Of a stretch of 64,000 bases of DNA, positions 34,493 to 42,990 are shown piece by piece. Each line of letters starts with the position of its first letter. Position 1 is the stretch's first letter. The position numbers were made by a program, and so were the translations under genes. Location: NCBI GenBank assembly GCA_958295895.1, contig CATQHI010000012.1:21435-85434 (forward strand), read 5' to 3'. Source of the stretch: Saprospiraceae bacterium (GTDB taxonomy: Bacteria; Bacteroidota; Bacteroidia; Chitinophagales; Saprospiraceae). Under the pieces are notes generated by a model, which was given only the letters and a program-made list of their open reading frames with translations, was not told where the DNA came from and did no database searches.

Positions 34493-35704
34493 TTGCCCAC
34501 CGAAGCCTTTATCTACGATGCGCTGCGCTCGCCCCGGGGCCGCGCCGCCTACCCCGCCGACCTCTACGAGGTCAAACCCATCGAGCTGCTGGCCCAGTGC
34601 CTGGCCGCCTTCCAGCGCCGCAGCGGCCGCGACGACCTGCCCACCGAGATCGACGACCTGGTCATCGGCTGCAACACCCCGGCCGGCGACCAGGGCTACA
34701 ACATCGCCCGCGCCGCCCTGCTCTACGCCGGCTGGGGACGCGCCCGCGGCGGACTACAGATCAACCGCTTTAATACCAGCGGACTGGAGGCCATCAACCT
34801 GGCCGCGGCGCGCATCACGGCGGGTTACGGCGAGACGATCATCGCCGGCGGCATCGAGGTCATGTCGCGCGTGCCCACCTACCTCAACAGCGGGCCGATG
34901 ATGAACGACCCGGCCACCGTGATCAACAGCCACTACATTCCTCAGGGGGTGGCCGCCGACCTGGTGGCCAGCACCCACGGACTACGGCGGGAGGACCTCG
35001 ACGCCTACGCCCTGCGCAGTCACGCCAAAGCCGTAGCGGCGCGGGAGGCCGGCTACTTCGCCCCTAGTCTGGAGACCATAACGGATCAGAACGGGCTGGT
35101 GCTACTGGAGCAAGACGCGATCCCGGACGCCAGCCTGGACGCCGAGGAGCTTGCGATGCTGCCCCCCCGCTTTGCCGAGATGGGGCTGGCGGGTTTTGAC
35201 GAGATGGCCCTCCACCGCTTTCCGCTGGTGGACCACATCGACCACCGGCACTCGGCGGGCAATACCAGTCCGGCCGCCGACGGCTGTGCCCTCTGCCTGC
35301 TCGGTAACCGGGCGGCTGGCGACCGGCTCGGGCTCAAACCCCGTGCCCGCATTCGCGCCGTGGCCATGTCGGCCGTAGATGCCACCCTGCTCACGGGTGG
35401 GGTCAACGCCAGTGATCTCGTTCTACAACAAGCGGGACTGACCCGGGACGATGTAGACCTCTGGGAGTTCAACGAGTCCTTCGCCGCGCCGAGCATCCGC
35501 TTTCAGCAGCGACTGGACATCGACGAGGACCGCTTCAACGTACTCGGGGGCAGCATCGCCCTGGGCGAGCCCCTCGGGGCGGTCGGCGGCATGATGCTCT
35601 GTCAAATCCTGGACGAGCTGGAGCGCCGCGACCTGACCATCGGCAGTCTGACCATCGACGCCGGGGCGGGCCTGGCCGTCAGTACCATCATCGAACGACT
35701 ATGA
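34493..35704 (+). CDS. Thiolase-superfamily protein lacking canonical catalytic residues
   Basis: Full-length thiolase fold (INRFNTSGLEAINLA, HSAGNTSPAADG, EFNESFA, GGSIALGEPLGAVG); likely TTG start at 34493. Confidence 0.88.
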   Translation: MPTEAFIYDALRSPRGRAAYPADLYEVKPIELLAQCLAAFQRRSGRDDLPTEIDDLVIGCNTPAGDQGYNIARAALLYAGWGRARGGLQINRFNTSGLEAINLAAARITAGYGETIIAGGIEVMSRVPTYLNSGPMMNDPATVINSHYIPQGVAADLVASTHGLRREDLDAYALRSHAKAVAAREAGYFAPSLETITDQNGLVLLEQDAIPDASLDAEELAMLPPRFAEMGLAGFDEMALHRFPLVDHIDHRHSAGNTSPAADGCALCLLGNRAAGDRLGLKPRARIRAVAMSAVDATLLTGGVNASDLVLQQAGLTRDDVDLWEFNESFAAPSIRFQQRLDIDEDRFNVLGGSIALGEPLGAVGGMMLCQILDELERRDLTIGSLTIDAGAGLAVSTIIERL

Positions 35705-37827
35705 TCCACTACCGTAAGGATACCGACCACATCGCAACCCTCATCCTGGACATGACGGGCCGGGCCGGCAACCTGCTCAACCACCAGATCGTGGCCGCCT
35801 TCGCCCCGGTCATCGAGCACCTCAAGCAGGAGAAGGCAGCCGGCAAGCTGAATGGGGTCATCATCACCTCAGCCAAACAGGACTTTCTGGAGTCGGGTGA
35901 CCTGGACTACCTCTACCAGCTCCAGGACCCGGCCAAGGCCTTCGAGGCCGCCCAGCAGCTCAAGCAATTCCTACGCGACCTGGAGGTGCCCGGCGTACCC
36001 GTAGCGGCGGCCATCAATGGCGATGCGCTGGGCACCGGCTTCGAGCTCACCCTGGCCTGCCACTACCGGATTGCCGTAGCCGATTCCAAGCTCCGCCTGG
36101 GCCACCCGGAGGTGAAGATCGGGCTCATTCCGAGCGGCGGAGCCATTATCCGCCTCATGTGGCTGCTGGGTATCGAACGGGCCTACCCGCTGCTGCTGGA
36201 GGGGCGCCGCTACAGTCCGCAGGAGGCCCTCAAGGTGGGATTGATCGACGAGCTGGCCGAGAACCGCGAGGAGATGCTGGCGCGGGCCAAAGCCTGGCTG
36301 CTGAAAAATCACGACGTGGCCCGGCCCTGGGACGATCCCAACGGAAGTATTCCCGGGGGCACCGCCGCCGATCCTAATCTGGGGCACCGCATCCGGCTGC
36401 TGACCGCCCGGCTCAGTGCCCACACCAACGATCTCTACCCGGCCAAGCGCGCCATCATCGACCTACTGGCCGAGGGCAGTAAGCTCGACTTCGCCACGGC
36501 CTACCGCCTGGACAGTCGCTACTACGCTAAGGTGGCCACCGACCCGGTGACCAAGAATATGATCTCCACCTACTGGTTCGATAAGCAGGCCGTGCGGGGC
36601 GGCGTGGGCCGGCCGAAGGGCTTCGGCAAGTTCCGGGCCCGGAAGGTGGGCATTATCGGGGCGGGCATGATGGGCTCCGGCATCGCATTTCTGTGCCTGC
36701 GCAATGGGCTGCAGGTGGTGCTCAAGGACGTATCGCAGCCCATCGCCGACCGGGGCAAGGAGTACGTCAGTGCCAAAATCAGCGAGTACATCGAGCGGGG
36801 CACCTTTCAGCCCGAGGAGCGGGAACAACTACTGGAACGGGTGACGGCCACCAACCAGAACGAGCTGTTTCGGGACTGCGATATCGTCGTGGAGGCCGTC
36901 TTCGAAAATAAATCGGTGAAAACTAAGGTGACCCGCGAGGCCGAGGAGCGGCTCGATGAGTACTCCGTATTTGCCACCAATACCCTATCGATCCCGATCA
37001 CCGAGCTTGGCAAGGAAAGCATTCGTCCGGCTAACTACGTCGGACTGCACTTCTTCAGTCCGGCCGAAAAGACCGCCGTCGTGGAGGTAGTCGCCGGGGC
37101 GGCCACCAGCGAGGAGACCGTAGCCCGCGCCTTCGACTTTGCGACCTCCATCCGCAAACTACCGATCGTGGTCAAGGACAGTTGGGGCTTCTTTGCCGCC
37201 CGGGTACAGAATACCTACATTCTGGAGGGGATCACCATGCTACGGGAGGGCTACTCCGCCGCCCTGATCGAAAACATGGGCCGGCAGGCGGGCATGAAGA
37301 CCGGTCCGCTGGCCATGGCCGATGAGCTCGGGCTCAAGCTGGTGCTCCGCTACGAGCAGCAGGCCGCCGAGCACTACGGGCAGCGCTACAAGCAGCACCC
37401 GGCCGTGCCCGCCCTGACGCTACTGCGCGATGAGGTGGAGCGCACCGGCAAGAGCAAACGCATGGGCTTCTACGATTACGAGCCCGACGGTACGTCACGC
37501 CTGTGGGCGGGGCTCACCGAGCACTTCCCGGTGACCAAAGACGACTACGACCGGGAGCGGATGAAGGACCGTTTTCTCTTTGCGCAGGTCATCGAAGCGG
37601 GCTGGTGCCTACAGGAAGGGGTGATCGAGCACATCGAGGCGGCCAACCTGGCCAGCGTGTACGGTTGGGGATTTCCGGGCTATACCGGTGGCGTGATGCG
37701 CTACCTGTATAGCTACGGCAAGGAGGCCTTCGTGGCCCGGTGTGGGGAACTACGCGAACGGTACGGACAGCGCTTCACGGTGCCCAGGTACCTCAAAAAC
37801 CTGGAGCCGGACCGTTTGACGCCCTGA
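35701..37827 (+). CDS. fadJ: Bifunctional enoyl-CoA hydratase/3-hydroxyacyl-CoA dehydrogenase (FadB/FadJ type)
   Basis: Hydratase GTGFELTLACHYRIA and GHPEVKIGLIP (both Glu kept); dehydrogenase GIIGAGMMGSGIA and GLHFFSP; 4-bp overlap with thiolase gene. Confidence 0.93.
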   Translation: MIHYRKDTDHIATLILDMTGRAGNLLNHQIVAAFAPVIEHLKQEKAAGKLNGVIITSAKQDFLESGDLDYLYQLQDPAKAFEAAQQLKQFLRDLEVPGVPVAAAINGDALGTGFELTLACHYRIAVADSKLRLGHPEVKIGLIPSGGAIIRLMWLLGIERAYPLLLEGRRYSPQEALKVGLIDELAENREEMLARAKAWLLKNHDVARPWDDPNGSIPGGTAADPNLGHRIRLLTARLSAHTNDLYPAKRAIIDLLAEGSKLDFATAYRLDSRYYAKVATDPVTKNMISTYWFDKQAVRGGVGRPKGFGKFRARKVGIIGAGMMGSGIAFLCLRNGLQVVLKDVSQPIADRGKEYVSAKISEYIERGTFQPEEREQLLERVTATNQNELFRDCDIVVEAVFENKSVKTKVTREAEERLDEYSVFATNTLSIPITELGKESIRPANYVGLHFFSPAEKTAVVEVVAGAATSEETVARAFDFATSIRKLPIVVKDSWGFFAARVQNTYILEGITMLREGYSAALIENMGRQAGMKTGPLAMADELGLKLVLRYEQQAAEHYGQRYKQHPAVPALTLLRDEVERTGKSKRMGFYDYEPDGTSRLWAGLTEHFPVTKDDYDRERMKDRFLFAQVIEAGWCLQEGVIEHIEAANLASVYGWGFPGYTGGVMRYLYSYGKEAFVARCGELRERYGQRFTVPRYLKNLEPDRLTP

Positions 37828-37887: not shown

Positions 37888-39693
37888 ATGCCGGCGCTTG
37901 GCACTTTAGTAGAACAGCTAGTCGAGACCGTTCCCCTCCCCGCCTTCATCGCCCTGCACGACGGTACTATCACAGCAGCGAATACCTCCCTGCTGAAGGT
38001 GACCGGTCAGCCCGATCTGGTCAAGATGGATCGCTCGCTCTTTGGATTGGGAATCTTTCACAACAGTGCCGAGCTACGGGGATTCATCCAGAGTTTCCGC
38101 GACCAACCGGGTCCGCGCCGGCTGGTACTGCCCGTCGGTCGCCTCAATGCCAACCGCCAACCCATCGTGCTCTACGCCTCACGCATCGAATGGCAGCAGG
38201 AGCCTGCCCTTTACGGGGTACTGAGCCGTCAGGGTCGCGGCGAGGATGGCCTCGAGCACCGCGGCGGAAATGGCAACCTCATCGAAGCGTTCCTGGACAG
38301 CCTACCCTTTCCGGCCCTGACCGTTAATTTGAACGGTCAGGTGGCTTTCCTTAACGCTACGATCCGGGCCGACCTGGGCGTGGATGGTAGTGAGCCGTCT
38401 GCCGACATGCACCGCATCGATGCCGAGACGGACCGTAGTACCCTGAATCGCTACATCAAACAGGCTGCCTCCCGCGGGGTGATGGTGTACGAGACCTCGT
38501 TGCAACGTAAGGATGGCACCCTCATCCCGGTGGAGATCACGATGACTCCATTACGCCACGCCGCGGTGCCGGGCGACGTACTCCTCACCGTCACCGAGAT
38601 CACCGATCGCCGCAACGCCCTCCGGGCCCAGCAGGCGCTGGAGATTGAGAACGCCAAGTTGATGACCCAGCTTCAGCGCCGCAGCGTGCTGGCAAGCGAG
38701 CAGTATGACCGGCAGCAGGACGGCTACACCATCATCACTAGGAGCGAGAAGTATAAGCGCGTACTACAGCAGATCAAGCAGGTAGCCCCTACGGACTCCA
38801 CGGTCCTTATTACCGGAGAGACCGGGACGGGCAAGGAACTCATTGCCCGGGCCATCCACGGGCAGAGCCGGCGGGCCTCGCGGCCGATGGTCATTCTAAA
38901 CTGTGGAGCCCTGCCCGCCGAGCTCATCGAAAGCGAACTTTTTGGCTACCGGAAGGGGGCCTTTACGGGTGCACGGACCGACCACCTGGGCCGCTTCGAA
39001 CTGGCCGACGAGGGGACCCTCTTTCTGGATGAGATCGGGGAGATGCCCATGCAGCTACAGACGCGACTGCTCAGGGTCCTACAGGATGGAGAGTTCACGC
39101 CGCTGGGAGCCCGTAGTACCGTGCACACCGACGTACGCATCGTAGCGGCTACGAACCGCGACCTACGCCAACGGGTAGCGGAGGGTAATTTCCGCTCCGA
39201 TCTCTACTTCCGCCTCAACGTTTTTCCGATTCATAGCCTCCCCCTGCGCGAGCGGCCCGAAGACATTGCCCCCCTGGTCCGTCACTTCGTCAATAAGTAT
39301 ACCGTACCGGGCACCTCTCCGCTCGAAGTCAGGAAGGAGGACCTGGACTTACTCCGCCGGCAGGCCTTTCCCGGCAACATCCGCGAGTTGGAGAATATGA
39401 TCCAGCGCGCACTCATTGTCAGCGACGGACCCTACCTGGAACTGGAGCTCGAACGAGTCGCTTCATCCCCGGCAACACCCCGGCAGCGGGGGGAAGAGGA
39501 GGAAGCTTCCGAGGACGCGGTCGCAGACGTGCTGACCTTTGAGGAGATGCAGCGCCGGCACATCCAGCGGGTGCTGGCGTTGACGGAGGGTAAGGTAAGC
39601 GGACAGGGGGGTGCGGCTGAGCTACTGGACCTGAATCCACAGACCCTGTTCAGCAAGATGCGGAAGCTCGGGATCGACCGCCTGGGTAGCTAG
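37888..39693 (+). CDS. PAS-domain sigma-54-dependent transcriptional regulator
   Basis: GETGTGKELIARAIH, ELFGYRKGAFTGAR, LFLDEIGEMP, C-terminal Fis-like HTH. Confidence 0.93.
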   Translation: MPALGTLVEQLVETVPLPAFIALHDGTITAANTSLLKVTGQPDLVKMDRSLFGLGIFHNSAELRGFIQSFRDQPGPRRLVLPVGRLNANRQPIVLYASRIEWQQEPALYGVLSRQGRGEDGLEHRGGNGNLIEAFLDSLPFPALTVNLNGQVAFLNATIRADLGVDGSEPSADMHRIDAETDRSTLNRYIKQAASRGVMVYETSLQRKDGTLIPVEITMTPLRHAAVPGDVLLTVTEITDRRNALRAQQALEIENAKLMTQLQRRSVLASEQYDRQQDGYTIITRSEKYKRVLQQIKQVAPTDSTVLITGETGTGKELIARAIHGQSRRASRPMVILNCGALPAELIESELFGYRKGAFTGARTDHLGRFELADEGTLFLDEIGEMPMQLQTRLLRVLQDGEFTPLGARSTVHTDVRIVAATNRDLRQRVAEGNFRSDLYFRLNVFPIHSLPLRERPEDIAPLVRHFVNKYTVPGTSPLEVRKEDLDLLRRQAFPGNIRELENMIQRALIVSDGPYLELELERVASSPATPRQRGEEEEASEDAVADVLTFEEMQRRHIQRVLALTEGKVSGQGGAAELLDLNPQTLFSKMRKLGIDRLGS

Positions 39694-42600
39694 TCGGTCT
39701 GTTCGATCTCGAAGCTGATTAGAACGATACGGTCCCTGGAAAAGATGGGCCGGTACACTACCGTGAGTGGTACGGTTTCCTCCGAAAGCTCTTCGATTGG
39801 GTAGGTAACTGCTACCAAAGGCTCTCCGGCCTGCAACCGTTCAACGGCTGTCCGGTACCGTTGTAGCCCGGCGGGGGTGAGCATATCGCCAATTTTGCGA
39901 TTCATGTAGTGGGGTGCCTGGTAGGCCAGTCCACTGCGCCGATTGAGAAAGATGAGGCGCTCGTCGGTATCGAAAAGCCCGGCGATCTGGGGGGAATTAC
40001 TGAGCAAGTATTCGTAGTGCTGGATGACCTGGGATGATTCCAGGCGTTCGTTCTCCAGGCTGGTGATGTCCCGGATGATGATCATGGCCTGCTCTACGGT
40101 ATCCCTGGCCGGCTCCGCGGCGGGCTTCACCGCGATGGGAATAAACTCCATCTCGACTCTGGTCACCTCCCCCTGCCGGGGCCGCAGGGTGAGGGTAAGG
40201 CGCTCCACCCGGCGTTGATCGAAGGACTGGCGGAGCGCCTCGGTGAACTGCACCTTGCCCTGAGCGTCGTCGATGAGATCGGTGAGGTACATACCCACGA
40301 GTTGCTGGGTAGTGTAATCCGCTAGCGGGCGGTTCACGTCCTCGATCCGGCTGTTGTTGCGCACGATGGCAATCACCTCCTGGGTGGTGTGGAAGATGGC
40401 CTCGTACTTGCGCGCCATATCCGTAAGCCGCCGCCGGGTACGTACCAGATCATTGATATCGACAAAGGTGATCACCACGCCCTCCACCTGGTCGGTCTCC
40501 GTCAGGTACGGCAGCATGCGCAGTAAATAGTAGTCGCCGGTACTGTCCTGTACCTCCTGATCGTAGCGTTTGGTCGTGCGAAGTACCTCCCGGCTGATCG
40601 CCTCGATATTGACGTCCCGAAAGGGACTGGCAAAGACCGTAAGCGGCCGTCCGAGGTCGCTGACGGTAAGATCGAACTGTTGTCCGATACCGGGGGTAAA
40701 CCGCCGGATGTTGAGCTGCTTATCGACGAAGATCGTGCTGATCTGGGTGCTTTTGAGCAGGTTGTTGATGTCGTTATTGATGGCGTTGAGCTCATCGTTT
40801 TTACGCTGAAACTCGTTATTTACGGTATAGAGTTCCTCGTTTACCGACTGAAGTTCCTCGTTCGTACTCTGCATCTCCTCGTTGGAGGCTAGGAGCTCGC
40901 GGTTACTGGATTGCAATTCCTCGTTGGTCGCTTCCAGCTCGTTGTACAGTTTTTGCGCGCGGCGTTCGGAGCGCTGTAGCTCGCCTTCCAGCTCGGTGAC
41001 CTTTTGCATGAGGCGACGGGTCAACGCTATACACCTCGGCTTCCTCCTCTGCCTGTTGCGAGTTATCCGGTGGGGCTTCTACGGGGAAGAACTCCAGCAT
41101 GGCGAGCGGCTCGCTGGAAGGTGCGCTCTCAAACACCCCGAATCGCACCCTGAGGTAGCGTGGTGGCAGTCCCTGCGCCGCCACGTTGATCCGTTCGAAA
41201 AGCCCGGTCCGTTGACTGCTCAGCACCCGGTCCACCCCGGCGGTGAGCAAACTTTGTACCTCCTCATTCAGTACGGTGCGCAGGGAGAGCTGGGCGTCAA
41301 AGCGCGGCAGGCTAAGGATGCCCGTAAATTCGCCGCTGAGGTAAATGATATCGTACTGCCGATTGACGAAAAGAGTACTGGGGGCGTACCGTTTCGGAAA
41401 GGAAGCGCGCGTATTCATCCATGGTAGAGCCGTAAAGGAGGGGCCGTGCAGAATTAGTAGTAGAAGTAGTAGAATCGAACTCGTCGGCAAACGGAGTCAC
41501 CGCGTGCACATTTCCGGGGGCGGAGGTGCGTAGCTTAGGATACGGCAGCACGCTAAGTCGCCGGTCAGGTGCTACTCCCCCCCAGGTCGTCGCGTTTTTT
41601 GTAGATTTTCCAGCGCCGGTCTACCGTAGCAAACGCCGACTGGAGGCTACCGAGATGCTCACTCTGGCCGAGCAGCAGGTAGCCTGCCGGATTGAGTCCG
41701 AAGTGAAAGTTGGACAACACCTGCTGCTGCGCCTCGCCGTCGATGTAGATGAGAAAATTGCGGCAGGAAATCAGGTCGATGCGGATGAAGGGCGGATCTT
41801 CCAGTAGGTTCTGGACCGCAAAGAGCAGATGCTCCTGAAGATCGGAGCGCACCCGGTACCCCTGGGAGGTAGGGGTAAAGTATTTATATAGGAATTCGGA
41901 CGGCACGTCTGCCTGAATGGAGGCATCGTACTGCCCGTGGGTGGCCACGACGATGGAACGGCGATCGACGTCCGAGCCGAAAATCTTGTAGTTGCGGCGC
42001 AGTTGCTGCTGCTCCAGGTAATCTTCTACCAGCATCGCGATGCCGTAGACCTCCTCCCCCGTAGAACAGGGAGGGTACCCAGATGCGTAGGTCTTGCTCA
42101 GCGGGCAGCTGCTTGAAGAGCTCCGGGATGATAACGTCGCGGAGCCGATCGAAGGCCTCGGCGTCGCGGAAAAAGCGAGTGACTCCGATGAGAAAGCTTT
42201 GCCGTAAAATCTGGAGCTCGGGATCGTTGTGCAGGGCATACTGAATGTACCGCTGCAGCGATTCGTGCTGGGTGATGAGCATACGTTTTTCGATCCGACG
42301 CCGTATGGTAGCCGTACGGTAGTGACCGAAGTTTATCCGGGAAACGGCGTGTATGCGCCGCATCAGGGCCTGGAATAAGTCGCCCTGCTCGATGTCGTCG
42401 CTCAGGGGTACCTGGCCGGTGACTCCGTCGTGGCGCAGGATCATGGCCAGGCGGCTGGCGAGCTGACCCGGTGGAAGGACTACATCGGCAATATTCTGAC
42501 GCAGGGCCGCCGTAGGCATACCGTCGAACTGAGCCGTACTGGGGTCCTGCACCATGACCAACCCACCGTGTGCCTTGACCTCCTTGAGCCCCCGACTACC

Positions 42601-42990
42601 GTCGGTGCCCATGCCGGAGAGCACGATGGCCACCGAGGCCTCCTGCTGACTGGCGGCAAGGCTGAAGAAAAACTCGTCGATGGGCAGGTAGAGCCCCTGC
42701 TGCGGCAGTTTGCGGGGTGTGAGGTGGAGGAGGTGGTTGAGGTTGACCTCGTACTCCGGCGACTTGATGTAAACATGGTCCGCCTGAGGAATGGTATCCT
42801 CAGCGAGCATCGACACCGTCAAATTTGTAGCCCGCTGTAGGATACTGTCCATAGAGCTGGCGTGATCGACCGAGAGGTGCTGCACCACGACGAAGGCGAC
42901 ACCAAGGCCTAGGGGAATTTCGGAAAAAAATGACTCCAGTGCCTGTAGCCCCCCGGCGGAGGCGCCGATACCGATCACTCTGACGGACAT
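39690..42990 (-). pseudogene. CheB-CheR-PAS hybrid gene interrupted by four apparent +1 frameshifts
   Basis: Consecutive minus ORFs 41884-42990 (CheB), 41565-42239 (CheR), 41312-41551, 40903-41490 and 39690-41024 (coiled coil/PAS) in shifting frames rebuild one protein. Confidence 0.87.

Follow-up and report, generated by a model that had tools for sequence, protein, structure and literature searches.

Genes and features of the locus

The window analyzed here, a 64,000-nucleotide stretch of a contig from a Saprospiraceae bacterium, carries a fadA-type gene (its product is referred to below as FadA*) and, overlapping it by 4 bases, a fadB-type gene. The features considered are the following:

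34493..35704, + strand: fadA-type beta subunit of a trifunctional enzyme (TFE), N-N-E-D variant, 403 aa, TTG start
34772..34774, + strand: Asn94, in place of the nucleophilic Cys (M. tuberculosis FadA [MtFadA] Cys92), by alignment
34859..34972, + strand: residues 123–160, loop region around the acyl-tail pocket, 31/38 positions invariant in the clade sharing the Asn, Glu, and Asp replacements (N/E/D clade)
35471..35473, + strand: Asn327 of the NEAF/NESF motif (oxyanion-hole Asn), kept, by alignment
35567..35569, + strand: Glu359, in place of the GHP His, by alignment
35657..35659, + strand: Asp389, in place of the CxG acid/base Cys, by alignment
35701..37827, + strand: fadB-type alpha subunit (enoyl-CoA hydratase and 3-hydroxyacyl-CoA dehydrogenase), 708 aa, with the Glu/Glu and His/Glu/Asn catalytic residues kept

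By sequence and predicted fold, FadA* is a TFE-type beta chain. Pairwise alignment matched it to the beta chain FadA (Rv0859) of the Mycobacterium tuberculosis TFE (E 1e-107), and a Foldseek comparison of its predicted model (pLDDT 89.5, pTM 0.91) with the MtTFE beta chain gave a TM score of 0.94 at 46% identity, the best solved relatives being the beta chains of this beta-oxidation complex. Both Thiolase_N (110.4 bits) and Thiolase_C (98.7 bits) were detected above their Pfam cut-offs, and the protein passed TIGR01930 (284.9 versus a cut-off of 240.55), while its score against the NCBIfam equivalog NF006090 (453.1 bits) fell below the cut-off of 514. The TTG start at 34493 is backed by orthologues, some of which have ATG at the same position and others a stop codon shortly upstream. 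The first-pass annotation had described the protein as a thiolase paralogue. This label is misleading, as FadA* is the sole TFE-type FadA of its genome, and the other two thiolases are only 30%–34% identical and belong to different thiolase types.

Replacement of the catalytic residues

The motifs in the FadA* translation are RFNTSGLEA, NESFA, GEPLGAV, and TIDAGAG. Alignment with MtFadA was gap-free through the catalytic motifs, placing Asn94, Glu359, and Asp389 on Cys92, the GHP His, and the CxG Cys, respectively. Translation and alignment confirm the earlier proposal that all three catalytic positions have been replaced, at the codons listed above. Each replacement involves two base substitutions (TGY to AAY, CAY to GAR, and TGY to GAY). 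Judged by the Cys, His, and Cys that define catalytic thiolases, FadA* is outside this group. Lacking the nucleophilic Cys, the His, and the acid/base Cys, it is almost certainly non-thiolytic, because under the known thiolase mechanism no acyl-enzyme intermediate would be able to form. We also considered a relocation of the catalytic residues to other parts of the protein, which was rejected given that there are no gaps at the motifs and that Cys265 and Cys370, both newly fixed in the N/E/D clade, are off the catalytic positions.

Fixation and maintenance in the Neolewinella group

A search for orthologues with the same replacements recovered them from 21/21 genomes examined of the Neolewinella group, a genus of marine bacteria, with one such protein each (63%–92% identity) and all four positions (N/N/E/D) invariant. 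These genomes include named Neolewinella species and the 65%-identical Lewinellaceae bacterium SD302, and fadB adjoins the N/E/D fadA throughout. The nearest canonical relatives are at most 55% identical and read C/N/H/C, leaving an identity gap from 65% to 55%. A second TFE-type FadA was found in none of the genomes of the group, where the next matches were ≤36% identical. When 398 genomes were scanned at the phylum level for the N/E/D DNA pattern, both sampled members of the genus were positive, and there was a single match elsewhere (G547, FNTTGLEA). The N/E/D set thus seems confined to the Neolewinella genus group. Because the 21 genomes form one genus-level group, they share a single origin and do not represent independent events.

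Pairs of FadA* orthologues differed by a dN of 0.05–0.09 and a dS of 0.57–0.97 (dN/dS of approximately 0.06–0.16). Between species whose downstream regulator and sensor genes are 55%–65% identical, FadA* and FadB are 85%–92% identical (same pairs). The low dN/dS, together with the two base substitutions underlying each change, shows that the gene is not decaying. The view taken in the first-pass annotation, that this is a maintained protein and not a decaying one, accordingly held up, with the same residues in 21/21 genomes, an intact predicted fold, a dN/dS far below 1, conserved synteny with fadB, and a pocket conserved above the rest of the protein.

Constraint on the rebuilt pocket

Conservation within the N/E/D clade is concentrated around the former active site. 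Among positions flanking the four catalytic sites, 36/48 are invariant versus 43% elsewhere (P = 2e-5), and the region covering the pocket (residues 123–160) is similarly enriched (P = 4e-6). On the basis of the MtFadA alignment and of Met134 and Gln149, both known from the literature as pocket residues, this region was interpreted as including the loop over the acyl-tail pocket. In a canonical genus of matched divergence (seven sequences; mean identity 0.77 versus 0.79 for the N/E/D clade), 34/48 flanking positions and 22/38 covering-loop positions are invariant (P = 0.24 for the latter), and enrichment in the covering region was also absent across larger sets of canonical FadA. The pocket of FadA* is therefore as constrained as the pockets of similarly divergent canonical thiolases, and its covering-loop region is more constrained. 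Moreover, some 30 positions at which canonical TFE FadA is conserved have changed and become fixed in the N/E/D clade, including the neighbor of the Cys, the NEAF Ala, and the Thr that follows GHPLGA. The invariance of pocket and loop, combined with these clade-fixed changes, indicates a site that underwent rebuilding and has been frozen since. Such constraint disfavors a mere leftover scaffold and points to a retained ligand-related function of the pocket, although conservation near the site may alternatively reflect packing at the dimer interface, which is the main competing interpretation.

Other non-canonical TFE FadA in the same family

The four catalytic positions (C-N-H-C in canonical proteins) were scored in 140 TFE-type FadA sequences; since the genome sample was non-random, no frequency of non-canonical forms is claimed. 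Genus g65 (L154/L181/L210–L214/L216/L230) carries Q-N-E/D-S/A, also with NESF, and several of its genomes encode an additional canonical TFE FadA. In genus g59, C-V-Y-S (L170/L201–L204) occurs along with C-N-Y-C in a 53%-identical congener (L205). Genus g95 (L171/L222) has a three-residue deletion over the nucleophile, followed by Gln, Asp/Glu, and Ser at the other positions. C-G-Y-S was found in G019 alongside a canonical copy, and a graded catalytic loss near a canonical sister was evident for L180, L172, and L129 (G001, G024, and G219), comprising S-N-H-C, D-Q-H-G (in G001), and R-S-F-A (in G024). Single changes among the 140 sequences included S-N-H-C, C-N-Q-C, and C-N-H-P. While N/N/E/D shows no variation in Neolewinella, catalytic positions vary within both g65 and g59.

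A tree constructed without the catalytic columns requires a minimum of five transitions between canonical and non-canonical states. C-G-Y-S, C-N-H-P, and the group of S-N-H-C, D-Q-H-G, and R-S-F-A were each placed beside a canonical sister with full support. Long-branch trees are uncertain, and the grouping of some long-branch forms may be an artefact. When analyzed alone, Neolewinella, g59, and g95 were each placed beside canonical genus g64, and g65 was placed elsewhere. The resemblance of the g65 sequences to the Neolewinella set is perhaps due to convergence; a single origin of the acid-type forms (Neolewinella, g65, and g95) was not rejected by an AU test (P = 0.525).

The FadB encoded next to most non-canonical FadA is intact. 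In G023 (L188), where the FadA His is replaced by Gln, FadB has Lys at the dehydrogenase catalytic His, and both TFE subunits of this organism may be impaired. In G059 (g59), fadA adjoins genes for a beta-eliminating lyase and menaquinone biosynthesis, with fadB elsewhere in the genome. Likewise, fadB is present but non-adjacent in g95 genomes, and in G095, fadA is followed by a prolyl-oligopeptidase-family gene.

The FadB partner and canonical thiolases

In the window and in 18 congeners with adequate flanking sequence, FadB has kept the two hydratase Glu, the dehydrogenase His/Glu, and the Asn of the NxS motif, which suggests that Neolewinella FadB is active as a hydratase/dehydrogenase. The window genome also encodes a canonical C/N/H/C thiolase near a FadN-like dehydrogenase/hydratase gene (contig C22), another canonical thiolase (contig C11), and seven acyl-CoA dehydrogenase matches. 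Given these two canonical thiolases, thiolysis need not depend on FadA*.

A putative function for FadA* and competing explanations

We consider it fairly probable (roughly 0.6) that FadA* is a non-thiolytic, acyl-CoA-binding TFE beta subunit holding an active hydratase/dehydrogenase FadB. It would represent the beta subunit, with a thiolase fold, of an alpha2beta2 TFE of the Mycobacterium type from which thiolysis has been lost, still folding (as predicted) and presumably dimerizing (by homology) like a thiolase, and carrying the adjacent FadB, as the operon and homology suggest. FadB, judging by its residues, would hydrate enoyl-CoA and oxidize 3-hydroxyacyl-CoA. The pocket formed by Asn94, Asn327, Glu359, and Asp389, together with the frozen covering loop, probably still binds a specific acyl-CoA intermediate, as its constraint suggests, and the bound compound would be either held and passed on, or acted on via non-covalent acid/base chemistry. 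Ordinary fatty-acid thiolysis would be carried out by the separate canonical thiolase encoded near the FadN-like gene. Loss of the nucleophile need not break such a complex, as the MtTFE has been crystallized with a beta-C92A substitution (PDB 7o1g).

The second of these two forms, a new acid/base activity, is possible, and can be put more strongly as an explanation of its own: Glu359 and Asp389, with Asn94 and Asn327, would constitute a neofunctionalized site (e.g., a lyase, isomerase, hydratase, or hydrolase) acting on the FadB product without a covalent intermediate. It is consistent with three double-base replacements having been fixed along with some 30 other clade-fixed changes, with a pocket constraint equal to that of canonical enzymes, and with the g65 proteins, in which an amide likewise replaces the Cys and an acid the His (g95 has an acid at the His position). 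The thiolase-fold aldolases Sal and Ltp2, in which the nucleophile is gone and a different chemistry has been acquired (PMC12329534), provide a precedent. Nonetheless, neither a substrate nor the genomic context points to a reaction, the flanking genes being unrelated, and constraint can reflect binding alone; hence, we regard this stronger version as tentative. A purely structural pseudoenzyme, with a beta chain that serves just to keep the FadB subunits together and a former active site without a role, would account for the kept FadB catalytic residues and for fadB staying beside fadA. Drift in an unused site also predicts mutually inconsistent residues such as those of other lineages (C-V-Y-S, R-S-F-A, and D-Q-H-G). 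In Neolewinella, however, the site and its covering loop rank with the best-conserved parts of the protein rather than the least conserved, and N/N/E/D lacks any variation, unlike the catalytic positions of g65 and g59, so that we judge this explanation unlikely for FadA*.

Continued thiolase activity through other residues is very improbable. A PcaF H356A/C90S double mutant was reported to have 7% activity (PMC7337054), and Cys370 has become fixed in the N/E/D clade, but here all three catalytic positions are changed, Asn at the nucleophile position cannot form a thioester, and Cys370, which replaces a Gly on the helix after the GEP loop, probably lies outside the pocket. An early pseudogene or an assembly error might be suspected from the frameshifted CheB/CheR-PAS gene nearby in the window genome. 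For fadA* itself, this was rejected and its probability is negligible, as the frame is open, dN/dS is low, and orthologues in 21 separate assemblies carry the same residues.

Comparison with known systems

FadA* shares its fold, length, NEAF-type Asn, and operon with FadB with M. tuberculosis FadA (Rv0859; PDB 4b3h, 7o4q, and others), which differs in having Cys92, the GHP His, and the CxG Cys where FadA* has Asn, Glu, and Asp, in addition to the clade-fixed changes, several of which are beside the catalytic motifs. Nucleophile-less thiolase-fold proteins are known from the distant SCP2/TLP branch (MsTLP1, PMC3406046; Sal and Ltp2, PMC12329534). Like FadA*, MsTLP1 has a thiolase fold without the nucleophilic Cys, and its thiolase activity was undetected; however, it is monomeric, approximately 15% identical to the Zoogloea ramigera thiolase, and has a YSCF motif, which is absent from FadA* (NESF), an ordinary TFE beta chain by sequence. 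Sal/Ltp2 and TbSLP (PMC12329534) similarly reuse a thiolase fold that lacks the nucleophilic Cys and form a complex with a partner of their own pathway, but are relatives of SCP2-type thiolases. The YDxF/Y motif and the DUF35 partner (of Sal/Ltp2) are absent from the FadA* locus, which has NESFA and FadB instead. On the basis of these differences in motifs and partners, FadA* falls outside both families. Going by its title as cited in PMC10818641, BbsCD is a further parallel and a precedent for a structural role, with inactive subunits kept in an oxidizing complex of acyl-CoA breakdown, although of the short-chain dehydrogenase fold rather than that of thiolases. Searches of the open-access literature on inactive thiolases and thiolase pseudoenzymes yielded no TFE-type beta chain that lacks its catalytic residues.

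As FadA* passes TIGR01930, annotation pipelines would call it an acetyl-CoA acyltransferase, and metabolic models would mistakenly assign thiolysis to it. Should the pocket have a new role, it would offer a defined and testable case of a thiolase site rebuilt inside a multienzyme complex, for which the repeated losses within one bacterial family serve as natural replicates. If the acid/base interpretation is true, acid-type TFE subunits (amide at the Cys, Glu/Asp at the His) would have recurred as a solution among the relatives of Neolewinella within its family.

Flanking genes

The fadA*-fadB pair is flanked by genes for a membrane protein, a short membrane protein (CDP-alcohol transferase-like by eye only), a sigma-54 regulator, and a chemotaxis-like sensor, an arrangement conserved in part of the genus only. 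No hint of a substrate was found among these unrelated neighbors. Both fadA* and fadB are whole in the window genome despite the broken CheB/CheR-PAS sensor gene nearby. The latter (window positions 39690–42990, minus strand) is split over several frames by frameshifts, representing either a pseudogene or sequence errors, and is intact (about 1115–1120 aa) in two congeners (L269 and L270).
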